Shown here: positions 44,030 to 49,387 of the stretch, in pieces
Position numbering within the stretch: the first letter of the stretch is position 1
Layout: each line of letters starts with the position of its first letter
Assembly (NCBI GenBank): GCA_019775845.1
Contig: JADQAV010000046.1
Location: 186,001-250,000, forward strand
Reading direction: 5' to 3'
Length of the DNA: 64,000 nucleotides
Source: Myrmaecium sp. VS I D KN 1
Taxonomy: Eukaryota; Ascomycota; Dothideomycetes; Valsariales; Valsariaceae
The notes under the pieces: generated by a model
Databases searched by the model: none
What the model was told of the DNA's origin: nothing
Seen by the model: only the letters and a program-made list of their open reading frames with translations
Translations under genes and position numbers: made by a program

Positions 44030-47000
44030 ATGGCGGGAAAGATTGACTTCGCGCGACTGCGCGATCAGACCATGGACGCAGGTCAAGATGACGCTGTCAC
44101 GGTCAACACCCGGGCCCTTATCGACAAAGTTTTGGCTCGTTATTCCAGTGATTACACAACTCTACGTGAGTTGATACAAAATGCCGCCGACGCTGGTGCA
44201 ACCAAGGTGTCTATCAAGTTTGAGACAGTCCCATCTTTGCATACTCCGGCACCACATACGACAGACGCAGTCAGTCAATTGAAACACCTCATTCGGCATC
44301 ATAGCATCAGCCGGCTCATAGTGAGCAACAATGGACAGGCGTTCAGCACTGCCGACTGGGCGCGTTTGAAGCGCATTGCTGATGGTAATCCGGATGAGAG
44401 CAAGATTGGAGCGTTTGGAGTGGGATTTTACAGCGTTTTTGCCGACTGCGACGAGCCATTTGTTGTCTCCGGTAACAAGACTATGGCGTTTTTCTGGAAA
44501 GGAAACACACTCTTGACTCGAACTGTAAATCTCCCTGACGACCAGGCATCACCCGAGACATCGTTTTTTCTGGAGTACCGACAATCCAAAGCCGAAGACG
44601 GGATTAACACCAACCCGGCCCCTGTCCCAGACCTGCTATCGCTTTGTCAATTCCTCAGCACGAGCTTGACTTTTGTCGGTTTACAAAATATCGAGCTCTG
44701 GGTTGACAACTGGATGATCTGCCGACTCAATAAGAAAGCCTCACCCGAAAGTGATGTTGCTCTTCCAAGTGGACTGATAACCAAAACAGAGGAGGGCATG
44801 ATGCAAATTAAGAGCATCGCTTATTCAAACGCTCAAATAGATGCCACTTGGAACAATATTTTAGCCTGGAATCAGGCTTCGGTTAGTAATCCGAGTGCCA
44901 TTCTTCAAGAGCAGATCAGGACCGGAACGAATTCGTTGAAAAGCTTTTTTTCTAGACTTACATCGGGCTCCCAGGGCGCAAATACTAGTTCAAAGACACC
45001 GCAAAAAGAGCTGGCTCAAACCGCGGAAGAACAAGTCCAGGATAAGCTTGATGGGGAATCTCGTGCAACAGTATTCACGCGAATAAGCACGATCGGCATA
45101 CAGACGAATGTGTCCAACTACTTTGCCAGGGAGCTGGAGCGGGCCACGAAGAAGCCCCCTCCCAGAACTACACGGATCTCGATCCTAACGTCACCTTTTG
45201 ACGAGGCTGCATCGACTCTGTCAAGTGCTACCGGGAAATCGTCTAAGATCGCAGCAAAGCTGTTTTCGTCTGTGGTTCCCTCAAAACATGGAAGGATCTT
45301 CATCGGATTCCCTACGACACAGACCACTGGTATGTTGTGTCATATATCCGCGCCTTCCGTCATTCCAACCGTCGAACGCGAGAGTATCGACTTGAACGCG
45401 CGACATGTCAGAACCTGGAATACAGAAATGCTCCGAGTGGCCGGTATTGCCTGCCGCATCTCGTATATCGTCGATATGAACGAAATAAAAGCCAGATTAG
45501 ACCGCACTGTGGAAAAGCCTGGCGCCGTTCCGGATTACAGATCTGCACTAAAAGACGTTGTTCATGTCTTTCGACAGTATACCGCGCAAGAGTCAACACC
45601 TTACCAAAATGTCGGTGTTATCATCGAAAGCGCATTTTGGGGGTGCTCCAAGGCTAGGTCCTTGGACGTTTTGTCTACAAGGGGGATCCTACCAAGCCAC
45701 AAGGTTCGCATCGTCTCGGAGAAGCTGAGCTTCTTGACCGATGTTCCAATCATCCCAGAAGAGCTCACGGAGAAAACCGAAGGATTTGTACAGCGGCTTT
45801 TCGCCCTCGGCATGGTCTCTAAAATGACAATTGAGGATGTCACGCAAGGCCTGGAGGCTCGTGCTCTCAGCGAAGCAGAATTGTCAGAATTTCTGGTCTG
45901 GTGTAGTGGCAAGGCTCTGTCCGAGGAGCTCGACGAACCGGGCATCCAGAAACTCTTGGCCAGCACAATTGCTTGCTTTGCAACTGATCCAAACGGACCT
46001 GCGACCTCCATACTCGAACTCAAATATGTGGAAGACTTCGTAAACGCAACGAAAATATCCGCTGATATGCCCGTTCCCCCAAGTACAATTCCCTTCAAAC
46101 TGACCAAAAACCTTTCGAGGGACCAATTGTTGGCATTGGGGTGGTCAGAGTTGAGTATGGTGAAATGGTTTAGGTGGTTGATAAGCGGGCCTCAGCTCTC
46201 TCGTATCACCTCTGATGCCGAATTCGCGTCTAAAGTCTTGTCATTGCTGTCTAAGCAATGGGATGGGCTGAGTGCATCTTCAAGAAATACATTGTCCGAG
46301 CTGTTGTCACAGCAGCCAGTCATGCCCACAAAGCTCGGCATGCGTAAGCCGATTGAATCATACTTCCCCAATGTCAAGGTCTTCGACGATCTTCCGGTCA
46401 TCTCTTTGACTCACCATGTAAAAGATAAGCTCCTGGTCGCTCTGGGCGTGCGAAAGACCATTGAGCTTGGCTTTGTCTTCTCACGCCTAGACATACAGAA
46501 CCGAACAGGTGAAAAGACACAAGGGGCTTCGTTAAGCCACGGCGAGCTTATCCGCTATTTCGCCTCCGTGCGGGATCAAATGCCTCCCAATGACCTCAAA
46601 CGTTTGAAAGATACCGCCTTTTGCCCCTCCAAAGCGCCGACAGGCTCCGGGGCCGAGGGAGGACGACTTTACAAAGTTTCCGAGCTGTTTGTACCAAATG
46701 ATCAGAATGAACGGCTCGGCTTGCGCATCATCCATCTCCCATTCGAATATCGCGCCAATACACCCGAGGGGAAACTCCTCACGGCTCTTGGACTAAAGGC
46801 TGCTCCGACAGTCGACGATATCATTTTGGTGCTGTTAAACGCCGGAGCGACAGCCAACGAACGATTGTATGAATATGGTCTGCGCTACTTCATCGACAAC
46901 TTCAGCACCAACCGCTATTCACTAAATGAGGTGGGGAGATATGATACAACACCGTTCCTGCCTTCAGACCAGCATCACTTCCCGGACATGGTTGCACCGA

Positions 47001-49387
47001 AGTTTGTATTCAGCAATCCAAGAGCCAGTATCATGGGCTTTGCCGTTCTACGCAGGGACTTGCGGCCTGATGCTGGTAAATTCGGTGTTCAGAGCGATCC
47101 TGCTATTCAGGTGTGCGTAGACAAGCTGATAGCGAGGCCCCCTCGTACCATGGATGAAGCTCGAGGCATATTTGGCTACATGGCAATTCGGCTGCAGGAA
47201 ATGGAGCCCGCGCTACTGCAGAGGCTCGGCAAAGCACGCATCATCCCGGTGTTCCGACTGGTAGACGTATCCGGCAAAGATACGAGAGAGGAGAAGTGGG
47301 AACACAGGGCTGTGGAATATGTTGACTCAAACTCCGTATTTATTGGCACGGATCGGGAGTTTGGGAAAATCTTGCGCTATGTGAACTTTGGGGAGGAGGC
47401 ACACATGTTCCTTCTGAAGATTGGGGTCAAACATGAACCTTCCACCCCTGATCTCGCTGCCATGGTCATAGCTAACCCTCGCAAGTTTTACGTTGAGCTT
47501 GGTGTGGAGAAGTACCTTGGTGTGCTTCGCAAGTTTGCCGAACACCGCCATATTCTTAAGAAAGAGAAAGAGCTATGGCGACAAATGAAGTTGTCCCCTT
47601 TCCTTTTAGCTCACCAGAACACTTCTCCGCAAGAGGAAGAGGAAGCTTTGGACCTCATGGATGACGACGAGGACTTGAAGAGGCCGTCGAAGGAATATAC
47701 CCTGCATCAGGGCTCTGAGATCGTCATTTGTGATGAGATCAAGTATTTTGCCTCTTTCAGGCACCTTCTCAAGGTCGCACCCCCAATTGATCAGTTGGAG
47801 GAGTTCTACGAAGCATTGGGGGCCCAATGCTTCACGTCCATTCTGCAGACGTCAATTCGAACCGGTGCACCACTACGGGATCAGTCCGCTGCGGTCCGCT
47901 TACGCAAAGAAATCATTGCCAGGTCGCGTATCTTCCTGTACGAGTATGAAAAAGATGACCCGAAGAAGATCAAGCACAATCCCAAATGGCTCGACAAGCA
48001 TTTACAGATTCAGGTGGTCGACTCCTTAACCATGGATATTTCTCTTAAAGGATACCGGTCCGCATATAAGCGAGAGCGGCTCACTGTAGGTATGGCAGAA
48101 GGCAGCAGTACCCTTGTCATCACACAGAAGTATGACATGTTCGAAGTCAGCAATAGTCTGATTCGACTCCTGGTTGACCGGCCGAAGCAGAACGATATAG
48201 TCTCATTAGAAACCATCCTGTCCGAGTCTCTCCATCGTCTCAAGCGGAAAGGATTCAATGTTGAGAGGATTCTGCAACAACGTGAGCATGAAGCACGCAT
48301 GGCCGAGAGCGAGCGGCAGAAGCAGCTTGAGGCAGAAAAGGAGCAGCGAGAGGAAGAAGCACGGAAGGCGCTTGCATTGCAGGAAAAGCAGAAACAAGCG
48401 GATCAACAACCTGCAAAGGAGAGACAACCGGGCCTTGAGACGGCTCCTGAGACCCCCAAACAGAAACAAATAACTATGCCCGGGGCATTTGACGAGAGTC
48501 CGCCAAATCGCGGTATCATCCAGGCCCCCTCTTCTCCCCAAAGACGCGCCAGTGGTTTCCTCAAGCGTTTCCAGCGTCAGCTCGGCCTAAGTGATAGCCC
48601 TGAGCAGAACGGTGGTGGCCCGTCGAACAGAGCTCAGGATCCCAGCCGCGCCCACCAGGACTCCATCCGCAGCGTACACAGTGCCATCAACTCATGCAAG
48701 CCGCACAATTCCGACACGCTCAACTCCCAACCCCAGAGCAGCGTCGTTGAGGAAAGCAAGGGCGGCTACTGTGACACCACCTGCGCGCATGACCTCACCT
48801 GGATCATGAATATCTCCCCCTCCGGAGGAGCCTCCAGCGCCGCCGACGAGATCAAGTTTTTCCTCGCTCGGCACCTTCCCGCCAACACGCTGGTTCCCAC
48901 CCTCACACCGTCCCTTCGCATCTTCGCCCGTCTCCTAGCCGTTCTCCGCGCCGTCTTCGGCATCCGCCCGGACGCCATCCACATCTTCCACGACGACCGC
49001 ACCCAGGCCATCGCCTTCAACCGCGGCGGCGCCCTCTTCTTCAACCACTTCTCCTTCGAGCGGCTGCACCTGCCTCTCTTCCAACAAACATCCTCATCCC
49101 CACCCCGCTCCCCCATCCCGGCCTTCGACTACTGGTTCCTGGTGTTCACGCACGAGCTCGCCCACAACATCGTCGCCGAGCACAGCGCCAGCCACGAGTG
49201 GTACATGACCAACATCAACCTCGAGTTCGTCGGTCGGTTCCGTGACGCCGTCTTCGCTGACTCCCCCGCCGCCTGGCAGCGTTCGTTGGGCGGTGCTGGC
49301 CCAGCCGAGACTGCTGCTGCTGCCACCACGAGCGCGGATGCACCCCCGCAGTACGAGGAGCTCGACCATCTGGGCTCCCTCAACTGA
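44030..49387 (+). CDS. DUF3684 protein with N-terminal Hsp90/sacsin-like GHKL ATPase domain
   Basis: A single-exon 1,785-residue protein of a fungal family (DUF3684) with no established function. The N-terminal GHKL fold is clear: N box TLRELIQNAADAG (E47, N51), a G1-like segment VSNNGQAF in which Asn stands where canonical members have Asp, and G2 box KIGAFGVGFYSVFADC (about 125-140). This spelling resembles sacsin and plant NO VEIN proteins. A second conserved block (KYFASFRHLLKVAPPIDQLE) lies in the middle. A charged coiled coil (about 1,420-1,480) and a disordered linker follow. The last roughly 200 residues form a separate domain (HDLTWIMNISPSGGASSAA; RIFARLLAVLRAVFGIRPDA) ending with FTHELAHNIVAEHSASHEWY, an HExxH-x5-H-x3-HE motif (H1708, E1709, H1712, H1718, H1722). 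That domain could be a zinc metallopeptidase-like fold, but this is inference. Confidence 0.9.
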   Translation: MAGKIDFARLRDQTMDAGQDDAVTVNTRALIDKVLARYSSDYTTLRELIQNAADAGATKVSIKFETVPSLHTPAPHTTDAVSQLKHLIRHHSISRLIVSNNGQAFSTADWARLKRIADGNPDESKIGAFGVGFYSVFADCDEPFVVSGNKTMAFFWKGNTLLTRTVNLPDDQASPETSFFLEYRQSKAEDGINTNPAPVPDLLSLCQFLSTSLTFVGLQNIELWVDNWMICRLNKKASPESDVALPSGLITKTEEGMMQIKSIAYSNAQIDATWNNILAWNQASVSNPSAILQEQIRTGTNSLKSFFSRLTSGSQGANTSSKTPQKELAQTAEEQVQDKLDGESRATVFTRISTIGIQTNVSNYFARELERATKKPPPRTTRISILTSPFDEAASTLSSATGKSSKIAAKLFSSVVPSKHGRIFIGFPTTQTTGMLCHISAPSVIPTVERESIDLNARHVRTWNTEMLRVAGIACRISYIVDMNEIKARLDRTVEKPGAVPDYRSALKDVVHVFRQYTAQESTPYQNVGVIIESAFWGCSKARSLDVLSTRGILPSHKVRIVSEKLSFLTDVPIIPEELTEKTEGFVQRLFALGMVSKMTIEDVTQGLEARALSEAELSEFLVWCSGKALSEELDEPGIQKLLASTIACFATDPNGPATSILELKYVEDFVNATKISADMPVPPSTIPFKLTKNLSRDQLLALGWSELSMVKWFRWLISGPQLSRITSDAEFASKVLSLLSKQWDGLSASSRNTLSELLSQQPVMPTKLGMRKPIESYFPNVKVFDDLPVISLTHHVKDKLLVALGVRKTIELGFVFSRLDIQNRTGEKTQGASLSHGELIRYFASVRDQMPPNDLKRLKDTAFCPSKAPTGSGAEGGRLYKVSELFVPNDQNERLGLRIIHLPFEYRANTPEGKLLTALGLKAAPTVDDIILVLLNAGATANERLYEYGLRYFIDNFSTNRYSLNEVGRYDTTPFLPSDQHHFPDMVAPKFVFSNPRASIMGFAVLRRDLRPDAGKFGVQSDPAIQVCVDKLIARPPRTMDEARGIFGYMAIRLQEMEPALLQRLGKARIIPVFRLVDVSGKDTREEKWEHRAVEYVDSNSVFIGTDREFGKILRYVNFGEEAHMFLLKIGVKHEPSTPDLAAMVIANPRKFYVELGVEKYLGVLRKFAEHRHILKKEKELWRQMKLSPFLLAHQNTSPQEEEEALDLMDDDEDLKRPSKEYTLHQGSEIVICDEIKYFASFRHLLKVAPPIDQLEEFYEALGAQCFTSILQTSIRTGAPLRDQSAAVRLRKEIIARSRIFLYEYEKDDPKKIKHNPKWLDKHLQIQVVDSLTMDISLKGYRSAYKRERLTVGMAEGSSTLVITQKYDMFEVSNSLIRLLVDRPKQNDIVSLETILSESLHRLKRKGFNVERILQQREHEARMAESERQKQLEAEKEQREEEARKALALQEKQKQADQQPAKERQPGLETAPETPKQKQITMPGAFDESPPNRGIIQAPSSPQRRASGFLKRFQRQLGLSDSPEQNGGGPSNRAQDPSRAHQDSIRSVHSAINSCKPHNSDTLNSQPQSSVVEESKGGYCDTTCAHDLTWIMNISPSGGASSAADEIKFFLARHLPANTLVPTLTPSLRIFARLLAVLRAVFGIRPDAIHIFHDDRTQAIAFNRGGALFFNHFSFERLHLPLFQQTSSSPPRSPIPAFDYWFLVFTHELAHNIVAEHSASHEWYMTNINLEFVGRFRDAVFADSPAAWQRSLGGAGPAETAAAATTSADAPPQYEELDHLGSLN

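Follow-up and report, generated by a model that had tools for sequence, protein, structure and literature searches.

A DUF3684 protein of a Myrmaecium fungus with a sacsin-type head and a predicted zinc peptidase domain at its C terminus

Sacsin-like proteins and the DUF3684 gene

Plant NO VEIN and the TmtA proteins of PADLOC combine a sacsin-type head with a long body, and TmtA is presumably the Tiamat anti-phage protein. A protein of the same general build is encoded by a DUF3684 family gene of the fungus Myrmaecium sp. VS I D KN 1, located in the stretch of 64,000 nucleotides analyzed in this study (contig JADQAV010000046.1, positions 186,001 to 250,000; hereafter, the window). Animal sacsin and the window protein share a Pfam SACS head with an N box that includes the catalytic Glu and an Asn at the position of D79 in Hsp90; both are also very long chains whose effector domain is set apart at the C terminus (for sacsin, as stated in excerpts of PMC3710099 and PMC9880540). 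The C-terminal end of animal sacsin is HEPN according to an excerpt of PMC3710099, whereas in the window protein one head was detected, followed by the DUF3684 body and a tail predicted to be a zincin. In the available part of PMC12409356, Tiamat systems from plant-associated metagenomes were found on plant genome sequences in 100% of cases, which is in keeping with a group common to prokaryotes and eukaryotes.

The other comparison is with Wss1. The A. niger member (M80) has its motif printed as HEXXHXXXXXH in a passage of PMC7804941, which places M80 among the metzincins, while a passage of PMC4559962 calls Wss1 a minigluzincin. Wss1 and other minigluzincins resemble the C-terminal domain of the window protein in motif spacing, predicted fold, and small size. 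According to the portion of PMC4559962 available, Wss1 is controlled by DNA binding and a cysteine switch, self-cleaves once activated, and acts with SUMO and a separate AAA ATPase, Cdc48; the window protein, in contrast, has an ATP-binding-type head in the same chain.

We propose that the gene encodes a putative sacsin/TmtA-like zinc peptidase gated by nucleotide, and we hold this with slightly better than even confidence. Its parts are read from the sequence, its fold and active site are predicted, and its gating is inferred. The gene and its first two domains are as follows.

44030..49387, + strand: whole DUF3684 family gene, 1785 amino acids, a single unbroken reading frame
44117..44488, + strand: sacsin/Hsp90-type GHKL ATP-binding domain, residues 30-153 (Pfam SACS, NCBIfam P_loop_sacsin, PDB 5v44)
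44666..47941, + strand: DUF3684 body, residues 213-1304 (Pfam PF12449, 1197 bits, positions 1-1098 of the 1098 in the model)

A sacsin/Hsp90-like ATP-binding head had been suggested by an earlier note made from the sequence alone, and the family searches bear this out. Residues 30-153 match Pfam SACS with an E-value of 3.9e-18 (66.6 bits, above the curated cut-off of 32.8) and NCBIfam P_loop_sacsin with 6.3e-17, and among structures in the Protein Data Bank (PDB) the head aligned first with sacsin (5v44, E 6.6e-10) and next with yeast Hsp90. The N box RELIQNAADAGA at residues 46-57 contains the catalytic Glu, E47, and the G2 box GAFGVGF (127-133) has its glycines. The G1-like box SNNGQAF (99-105; S99-N100-N101-G102) has Asn where Hsp90 has D79, as at the aligned position of sacsin. 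In the excerpt available, a structure-based study of sacsin lists Glu33 as invariant and Asp79 among the “conserved” positions, and it favors an ATP-driven function yet calls ATP binding “debatable” (PMC9880540). ATP use by the window head is plausible. Against the TmtA models of PADLOC, the protein gave several matches in scattered stretches (47-151, the best, at 2.4e-18; 335-472; 1251-1536).

The earlier note had further pictured an unfold-and-cut machine, in which the ATPase unfolds or threads proteins into the peptidase, as FtsH or Lon does. The presence of an ATP-binding-type head and a predicted peptidase within one chain would suit such a machine. However, GHKL domains are not AAA+ rings; GHKL/Hsp90 ATPases work by conformational clamping, and to our knowledge they do not thread substrates. 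The Asn at the Hsp90 D79 position also argues against it, as does the absence of any significant AAA+ match to the window protein in the Pfam and NCBIfam scans. We regard this idea as very improbable.

The whole Pfam DUF3684 model is matched by the window protein, but it ends before the linker and the C-terminal domain. Past residue 1304 there was no significant Pfam or NCBIfam match, and NCBIfam gave no family for the final 206 residues. DUF3684 is not mentioned in the open-licence PMC papers searched, nor do these papers join sacsin with HExxH, or sacsin with metallopeptidase and HSP90-like. Among the listed papers that combine at least two of the terms sacsin, zincin, gluzincin, Wss1, and WLM domain, the one naming sacsin is a review of fish-virus transcriptomes. 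Annotation databases such as InterPro and MEROPS, which lay outside this search, may note the domain. The available part of an A. niger degradome paper includes an unassigned HEXXH protein, An06g01580.

The C-terminal domain and its predicted active site

The remaining region agrees with the separate C-terminal domain of about 200 residues described in the earlier note: no Pfam or NCBIfam family matches the last 206 residues significantly, and AlphaFold2 orders about residues 1589-1751.

48794..49282, + strand: predicted zincin (minigluzincin-like) domain, residues 1589-1751 (AlphaFold2, Foldseek)
49151..49195, + strand: metal-site motif HELAHNIVAEHSASH, residues 1708-1722, kept in a fungal orthologue (L019) and in a Lokiarchaeal protein (P0002), both retrieved with the motif pattern

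The reading frame places H1708, E1709, H1712, H1718, H1722, and E1723 exactly where an HExxH-x5-H-x3-HE motif had been claimed. The first five belong to the C-terminal motif HELAHNIVAEHSASHEWY, in which the first residue of HELAHN, residue 1708, is encoded from nucleotide 49151. In the fungal orthologue, E1723 is replaced by S or R (codon AGN), and in the Lokiarchaeal protein by S; therefore, E1723 was rejected as a member of the motif, and the terminal “HE” lies outside the signature. The predicted zinc ligands are H1708, H1712, and H1718, with E1709 as the predicted general base, and H1722 is predicted to be a second-shell or alternative ligand. The HExxHx5H spacing of these residues is the same as in two WLM frames of the host genome (HELAHNVHGDH and HEVAHCVEMNH).

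In 20,000 shuffles of the whole protein, HExxH arose by chance in 6.5%, HExxHx5H in 0.175%, and HExxHx5Hx3H in none; the last was obtained at a frequency of 7e-5 in 100,000 shuffles of the 206-residue tail. Among the window frames of at least 150 residues (32,054 amino acids in total), HExxH is found twice, the second time as LHEGLHC at nucleotide 1642. DNA encoding FTHELAHN, searched in degenerate form, occurs once in the 25.66-Mb host genome (66 contigs), and the sole other match to the protein in that genome is an Hsp90-like frame (E 6.6e-4).

The domain was modeled with AlphaFold2 as residues 1580-1755 (pLDDT 79.0, pTM 0.80), and the corresponding Lokiarchaeal domain was modeled likewise (pLDDT 76.9, pTM 0.74). 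Both models have the same order of elements, strand-strand-helix-three strands-helix(HExxH)-helix, and in the window model the active-site helix (1696-1711), which bears H1708 and E1709, comes after the strands and before the C-terminal helices. In a Foldseek search of the PDB, nine of the first ten matches to the window model were zinc metallopeptidases, counting a SWELL1-PSA chain as an aminopeptidase. The best matches were M1 aminopeptidases, Wss1, EryP, and jannalysin/selecase, with Wss1 (5xbn) at rank 2 (probability 0.97). For the Lokiarchaeal model, ranks 1-18 were all zinc metallopeptidases; Wss1 5xbn was at rank 1 (probability 0.99), and S. pombe Wss1 reached a TMt of up to 0.58. The named matches among viral predicted structures included a zinc-binding metallopeptidase, M48, SprT, M61, and WLM, together with non-peptidases, none at E<=0.001. 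Structure prediction, proposed in the earlier note as a check for a zincin fold, thus gave a zincin-like fold whose best PDB matches are zincins, none of them at E<=0.001. On these models, the domain is predicted to be a zincin of the minigluzincin type, most like Wss1 in site and fold, and the possible metallopeptidase suggested earlier is upheld as a prediction by the fold and by three His and one Glu in Wss1-like spacing.

This likeness does not extend to membership of the WLM family. Pfam WLM reached 12.4 bits on the motif piece (cut-off 26; E 0.17), and it gave no match row for the 206-residue tail or the whole window protein. Membership by sequence was rejected because the likeness is that of the motif alone and no better than controls, and the domain is classed as a predicted minigluzincin that resembles Wss1 in its site and fold without belonging to WLM. 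An ImmA/IrrE-type metallopeptidase was also rejected (0.6% probability with hhalign against an ImmA of Natronobeatus). Further matches were set aside as well: TAL-effector chains at E 3e-10 were sums of tiny repeat scores (no single stretch above 5.3 bits in the alignments shown), adamalysin in the same search was at E 0.06 or worse, and antibody and lipocalin matches were due to chance. A cysteine, C1581, stands at the start of the domain in both fungal sequences, and the Lokiarchaeal protein is without a cysteine at that place; a cysteine switch in the fungal domain is a guess.

A zincin fold may persist without cutting. The main alternative is a pseudo-peptidase, a domain that still has the fold and can bind zinc or a peptide but plays a docking or structural role. 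A TFIID chain, presumably the M1-like, non-proteolytic TAF2, appears at rank 16 among the fold matches of the window model, and the restriction of the WLM likeness to the motif points the same way. However, the general base and ligands are usually the first to be lost in degenerate zincins, and the two fungal sequences and the Lokiarchaeal one all have E1709 and the three predicted ligands, though the search pattern required them in the relatives. We consider a pseudo-peptidase rather unlikely and the peptidase, going by the models, to be probably Wss1-like and active.

A different zinc enzyme, not a general protease, would be a self-processing or peptide-trimming, aminopeptidase-like one, which cuts only its own linker and frees a signaling tail. 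In its favor, the best fold matches include M1 aminopeptidases, the domain follows a long linker, and Wss1 cleaves itself on activation (in the part of PMC4559962 available). The GxMEN exopeptidase motif was, however, not seen by eye, and the motif spacing is Wss1-like; such an enzyme appears to us quite unlikely. The regions flanking the domain are listed below.

48311..48625, + strand: linker, charged and coiled-coil-like, residues ~1428-1532, read by eye
49283..49384, + strand: C-terminal tail, residues 1752-1785, of low-complexity appearance, with PPQY at 1772-1775, read from the sequence

Within the linker (window 48476-48625), two stretches are common to the orthologue by eye, MPGAF at 1483 (MPG[AG]F) and FLKRFQRQLG at 1510 (F..F.+.LG). 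Both fungal proteins have a PPxY at differing places, PPQY at 1772 in the window protein and PPTY in L019, which possibly serves WW-domain docking. The neighboring genes (window 38629-64000), read by eye with no search made, resemble those for the TRAPP subunit TRS120, ATP synthase beta, glycogen branching enzyme, ClpX, and RNase H2; by this look, the setting seems to be housekeeping-like and not a defense island.

Relatives on a fungal-type contig and in a Lokiarchaeon

A collection of 84,980 prokaryote species was scanned with the exact pattern HELAHNxxxxHxxxH, which fixes eight residues. It gave six loci, and in two of them the motif sits at the corresponding C-terminal position of a sacsin-like protein. 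The others were rejected: the motif frames of L007 and L011 (125 and 64 residues) show no sacsin features and were judged by eye to be chance, and L009 and L010 are reprolysin-type proteins by eye. That two of the six motif loci end sacsin-headed proteins is a stronger argument than sequence likeness. The expectation in the earlier note that the His and Glu residues are kept among homologues agrees with both relatives found, but the pattern itself required these residues.

The first relative (L008/L019) is a DUF3684 orthologue with the same C-terminal domain and motif. It is split across three frames with intron-like breaks, whereas the window protein is continuous in one. The two are 47% identical over residues 3-1014, 35% over 1013-1234, and 35% over 1235-1726, and L019 matches DUF3684 in three pieces, the first with 1097 bits. 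It is found on a 294-kb fungal-type contig (G002:C57) inside a metagenome-assembled genome labeled “Deltaproteobacteria” (isolate CPC1). DUF3684 was detected at E<=1e-5 in none of the 51 other genomes searched from this group; therefore, the contig is likely a fungal contaminant.

The second relative, the Lokiarchaeal protein P0002 (L012/L018), has 1520 amino acids, a SACS-type head, and the C-terminal end HELAHNICPNHDKLHSKYM. SACS matched it with an E-value of 7.2e-7 at 29.7 bits, below the cut-off of 32.8, and at 37.1 bits with neighboring stretches, above it; BLASTP with the window head gave E 2e-7. It matches PADLOC TmtA at 1.7e-44 (699-1258 of 1563; best stretch 664-1234). The gene lies on a 793-kb contig near genes for Roadblock/LC7, EamA, and a longin-like protein (the last below its cut-off), and its GC content is 29.0%, compared with 30.2% in the flanks. 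Because of the neighboring genes and the GC content matching the flanks, P0002 is taken as archaeal and not as contamination.

The full protein was found in one of 227 Asgard genomes, with one further match of 65 residues at 7e-4, and the C-terminal domain in one of 227 at E<0.01, with 18 other genomes at E 0.018 or worse. Nine weak Asgard loci were inspected, eight from the domain search and L021 from the full-protein search; HExxH occurs in L029 (a frame of 39 residues) and in L032 (a membrane-type peptidase by eye). The viral collections gave no relative to the whole window protein, the Lokiarchaeal protein, the tail, or the body; a first motif pattern found no viral locus, and the phage collection had no match to the Lokiarchaeal tail. 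A looser viral pattern gave six loci, with the motif in an open frame of at least 20 residues in two, both of 23 residues, and these were rejected. Also rejected was an unannotated frame of the haloarchaeal DL31 plasmid (L068:6675-8372) that ends in a stretch resembling the Lokiarchaeal zincin strands, at a non-significant E of 0.3 and with RETAF in place of HExxH; it is weakly RapA_C-like (20.7 bits, below the family cut-off).

The search pattern required the eight residues of the motif, so its match across the three sequences cannot be taken as a sign of conservation. Beyond the pattern, the three sequences agree at 13 positions (D1582, T1584, L1616, L1629, F1632, L1636, A1662, F1663, N1664, G1667, N1672, W1702, and I1714). 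With the motif included, the fungal sequences matched the Lokiarchaeal one with 94.7% probability by hhalign and E 9e-7 by BLASTP, and both figures contain the selected residues.

Effector ends, mechanism, and meaning

Other prokaryotic sacsin-headed proteins provide a wider comparison. Nineteen large proteins were counted: seven of eight plasmid records (H24 was left out) and 12 frames of at least 1000 residues, namely 11 from 23 Bacteroidota places and one of the two such frames among nine Asgard places, the other being the Lokiarchaeal gene. Shorter frames, mostly of Hsp90 size, were excluded before counting, among them H1/L005 with 679 residues. From 14 earlier plasmid records, H1, H14, and H19 (Sulfuricurvum) were retrieved, and 11 of Ensifer/Sinorhizobium were left out.

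These proteins differ from the window protein at the C terminus. A Pfam scan of 13 of the 19 showed NOV_C in six (Sulfuricurvum, Halosimplex, and four of Bacteroidota), SF1-type helicase parts in two (Bacteroidota), and no significant C-terminal family in five. Three more sacsin-headed proteins are cysteine-rich and HNH-like by eye only. The Sulfuricurvum and Halosimplex proteins are annotated DUF3883; therefore, NOV_C and DUF3883 name the same end, and DUF3883 is described as a novel REase domain in an excerpt of PMC3710099. So the C-terminal effector is swapped within the sacsin-like group, one sensor-like chassis carrying several effectors, and the zincin tail looks like a rare protease version among prokaryotes.

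Four further observations concern this group. The Bacteroidota proteins L104 and L105, of about 1600 residues, have a sacsin head and SF1-type helicase parts in a single chain. A Calothrix plasmid protein (L006:6935-11245, 1436 amino acids) has a SACS head, lacks HExxH, and matches DUF3684 with 41.2 bits, above the cut-off of 27; therefore, DUF3684-like bodies exist in bacteria. On a Natronobeatus plasmid (L024:5833-11646), a sacsin-headed gene of 1633 amino acids is convergent with an annotated ImmA/IrrE metallopeptidase gene, with an overlap of 18 bases, which may represent this head-peptidase combination spread over two genes. A second Asgard genome encodes a sacsin-headed protein of 2497 amino acids without HExxH (L114:907-8400).

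Several results weigh against a nucleotide-gated zinc peptidase and its prokaryotic counterpart. HExxH was found in none of the 19 large prokaryotic proteins. The Asn in place of the Hsp90 G1 Asp makes nucleotide binding by the head uncertain, judging from the sequence. Both AlphaFold2 models derive from three sequences and one common alignment and are not independent. No Foldseek match in the PDB reached E<=0.001 (best 0.031 for the window model and 0.013 for the Lokiarchaeal one), TM-scores were at most 0.58 among the listed zincin matches, and unrelated or unnamed folds enter from rank 10 (window; a protein of unknown function) and rank 19 (Lokiarchaeal; Vps29). The hhalign scores with WLM, 30.8 and 34.1, compare with a mean of 32.0 and a maximum of 41.7 for 60 controls of the first WLM in which the motif was kept and the rest shuffled. 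The apparent conservation of the motif is biased, both relatives having been retrieved with it. DUF3684 was not detected in P0002 by the Pfam scan, and with the motif removed, the fungal pair matched the Lokiarchaeal sequence with an hhalign score of 16.6 (probability 1.4%), which was reached by four of 300 shuffles.

The weak match beyond the motif and the lack of a detectable DUF3684 body in P0002 would suit an independent fusion of the fungal and Lokiarchaeal tails to sacsin-like heads, in which case the architecture is convergent and silent on ancestry. The occurrence of the protein, and of the domain at E<0.01, in a single one of the 227 Asgard genomes and the swapping of C-terminal effectors in this group are consistent with it. 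On the other side, AFN..G....N, W1702, and D1582/T1584 are common to the tails outside the pattern, none of the 31 other P0002 windows scored as high as the true one after removal of the motif, and the strands and helices are predicted to follow each other in the same order, though from one common alignment. We lean away from independent fusion while giving it appreciable weight.

For the nucleotide-gated zinc peptidase, a possible mechanism can be outlined. The body would capture a client, possibly a misfolded protein or a protein complex that is foreign or bound to nucleic acid. When the head then bound nucleotide or dimerized, the body would change shape and thereby expose or position an otherwise latent peptidase. 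The C-terminal domain is predicted to hold one zinc via H1708, H1712, and H1718 and to hydrolyze peptide bonds with E1709 as the general base; it may cleave the captured client, or itself, to a limited extent. Such control of latency would be analogous to that of Wss1 by DNA binding and a cysteine switch (described in part of PMC4559962). Depending on the group, the C-terminal slot holds a nuclease-like NOV_C/DUF3883 domain (bacteria and archaea), HEPN (animal sacsin), parts of a helicase (some Bacteroidota), or, by prediction, a protease (the window protein).

The presence of the same head and tail in a fungus and a Lokiarchaeon hints at a possible old ATP-controlled protein-cutting device. 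A bolder and doubtful proposal is that the gene belongs to a branch of the sacsin/TmtA conflict and stress systems that is armed with a protease. Fungi would keep it as a single housekeeping-like gene for a zinc peptidase gated by a GHKL head, the one prokaryotic counterpart detected in this analysis being Lokiarchaeal. The fusion may stem from archaeal-eukaryotic inheritance or exchange, and the group as a whole would be a platform on which nuclease, RNase-like, helicase, and protease effectors are exchanged behind a common sensor. For DUF3684, a named family of unknown function, the predicted active site directs attention to one residue, E1709. If the prediction is true, sacsin-like proteins gain a protease among their effectors, one chain unites an Hsp90-type head with a peptidase, and a eukaryotic family is tied to a prokaryotic defense-like family and an Asgard archaeon. 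This may also bear on how the enigmatic effector ends work in animal sacsin and in plant NO VEIN.

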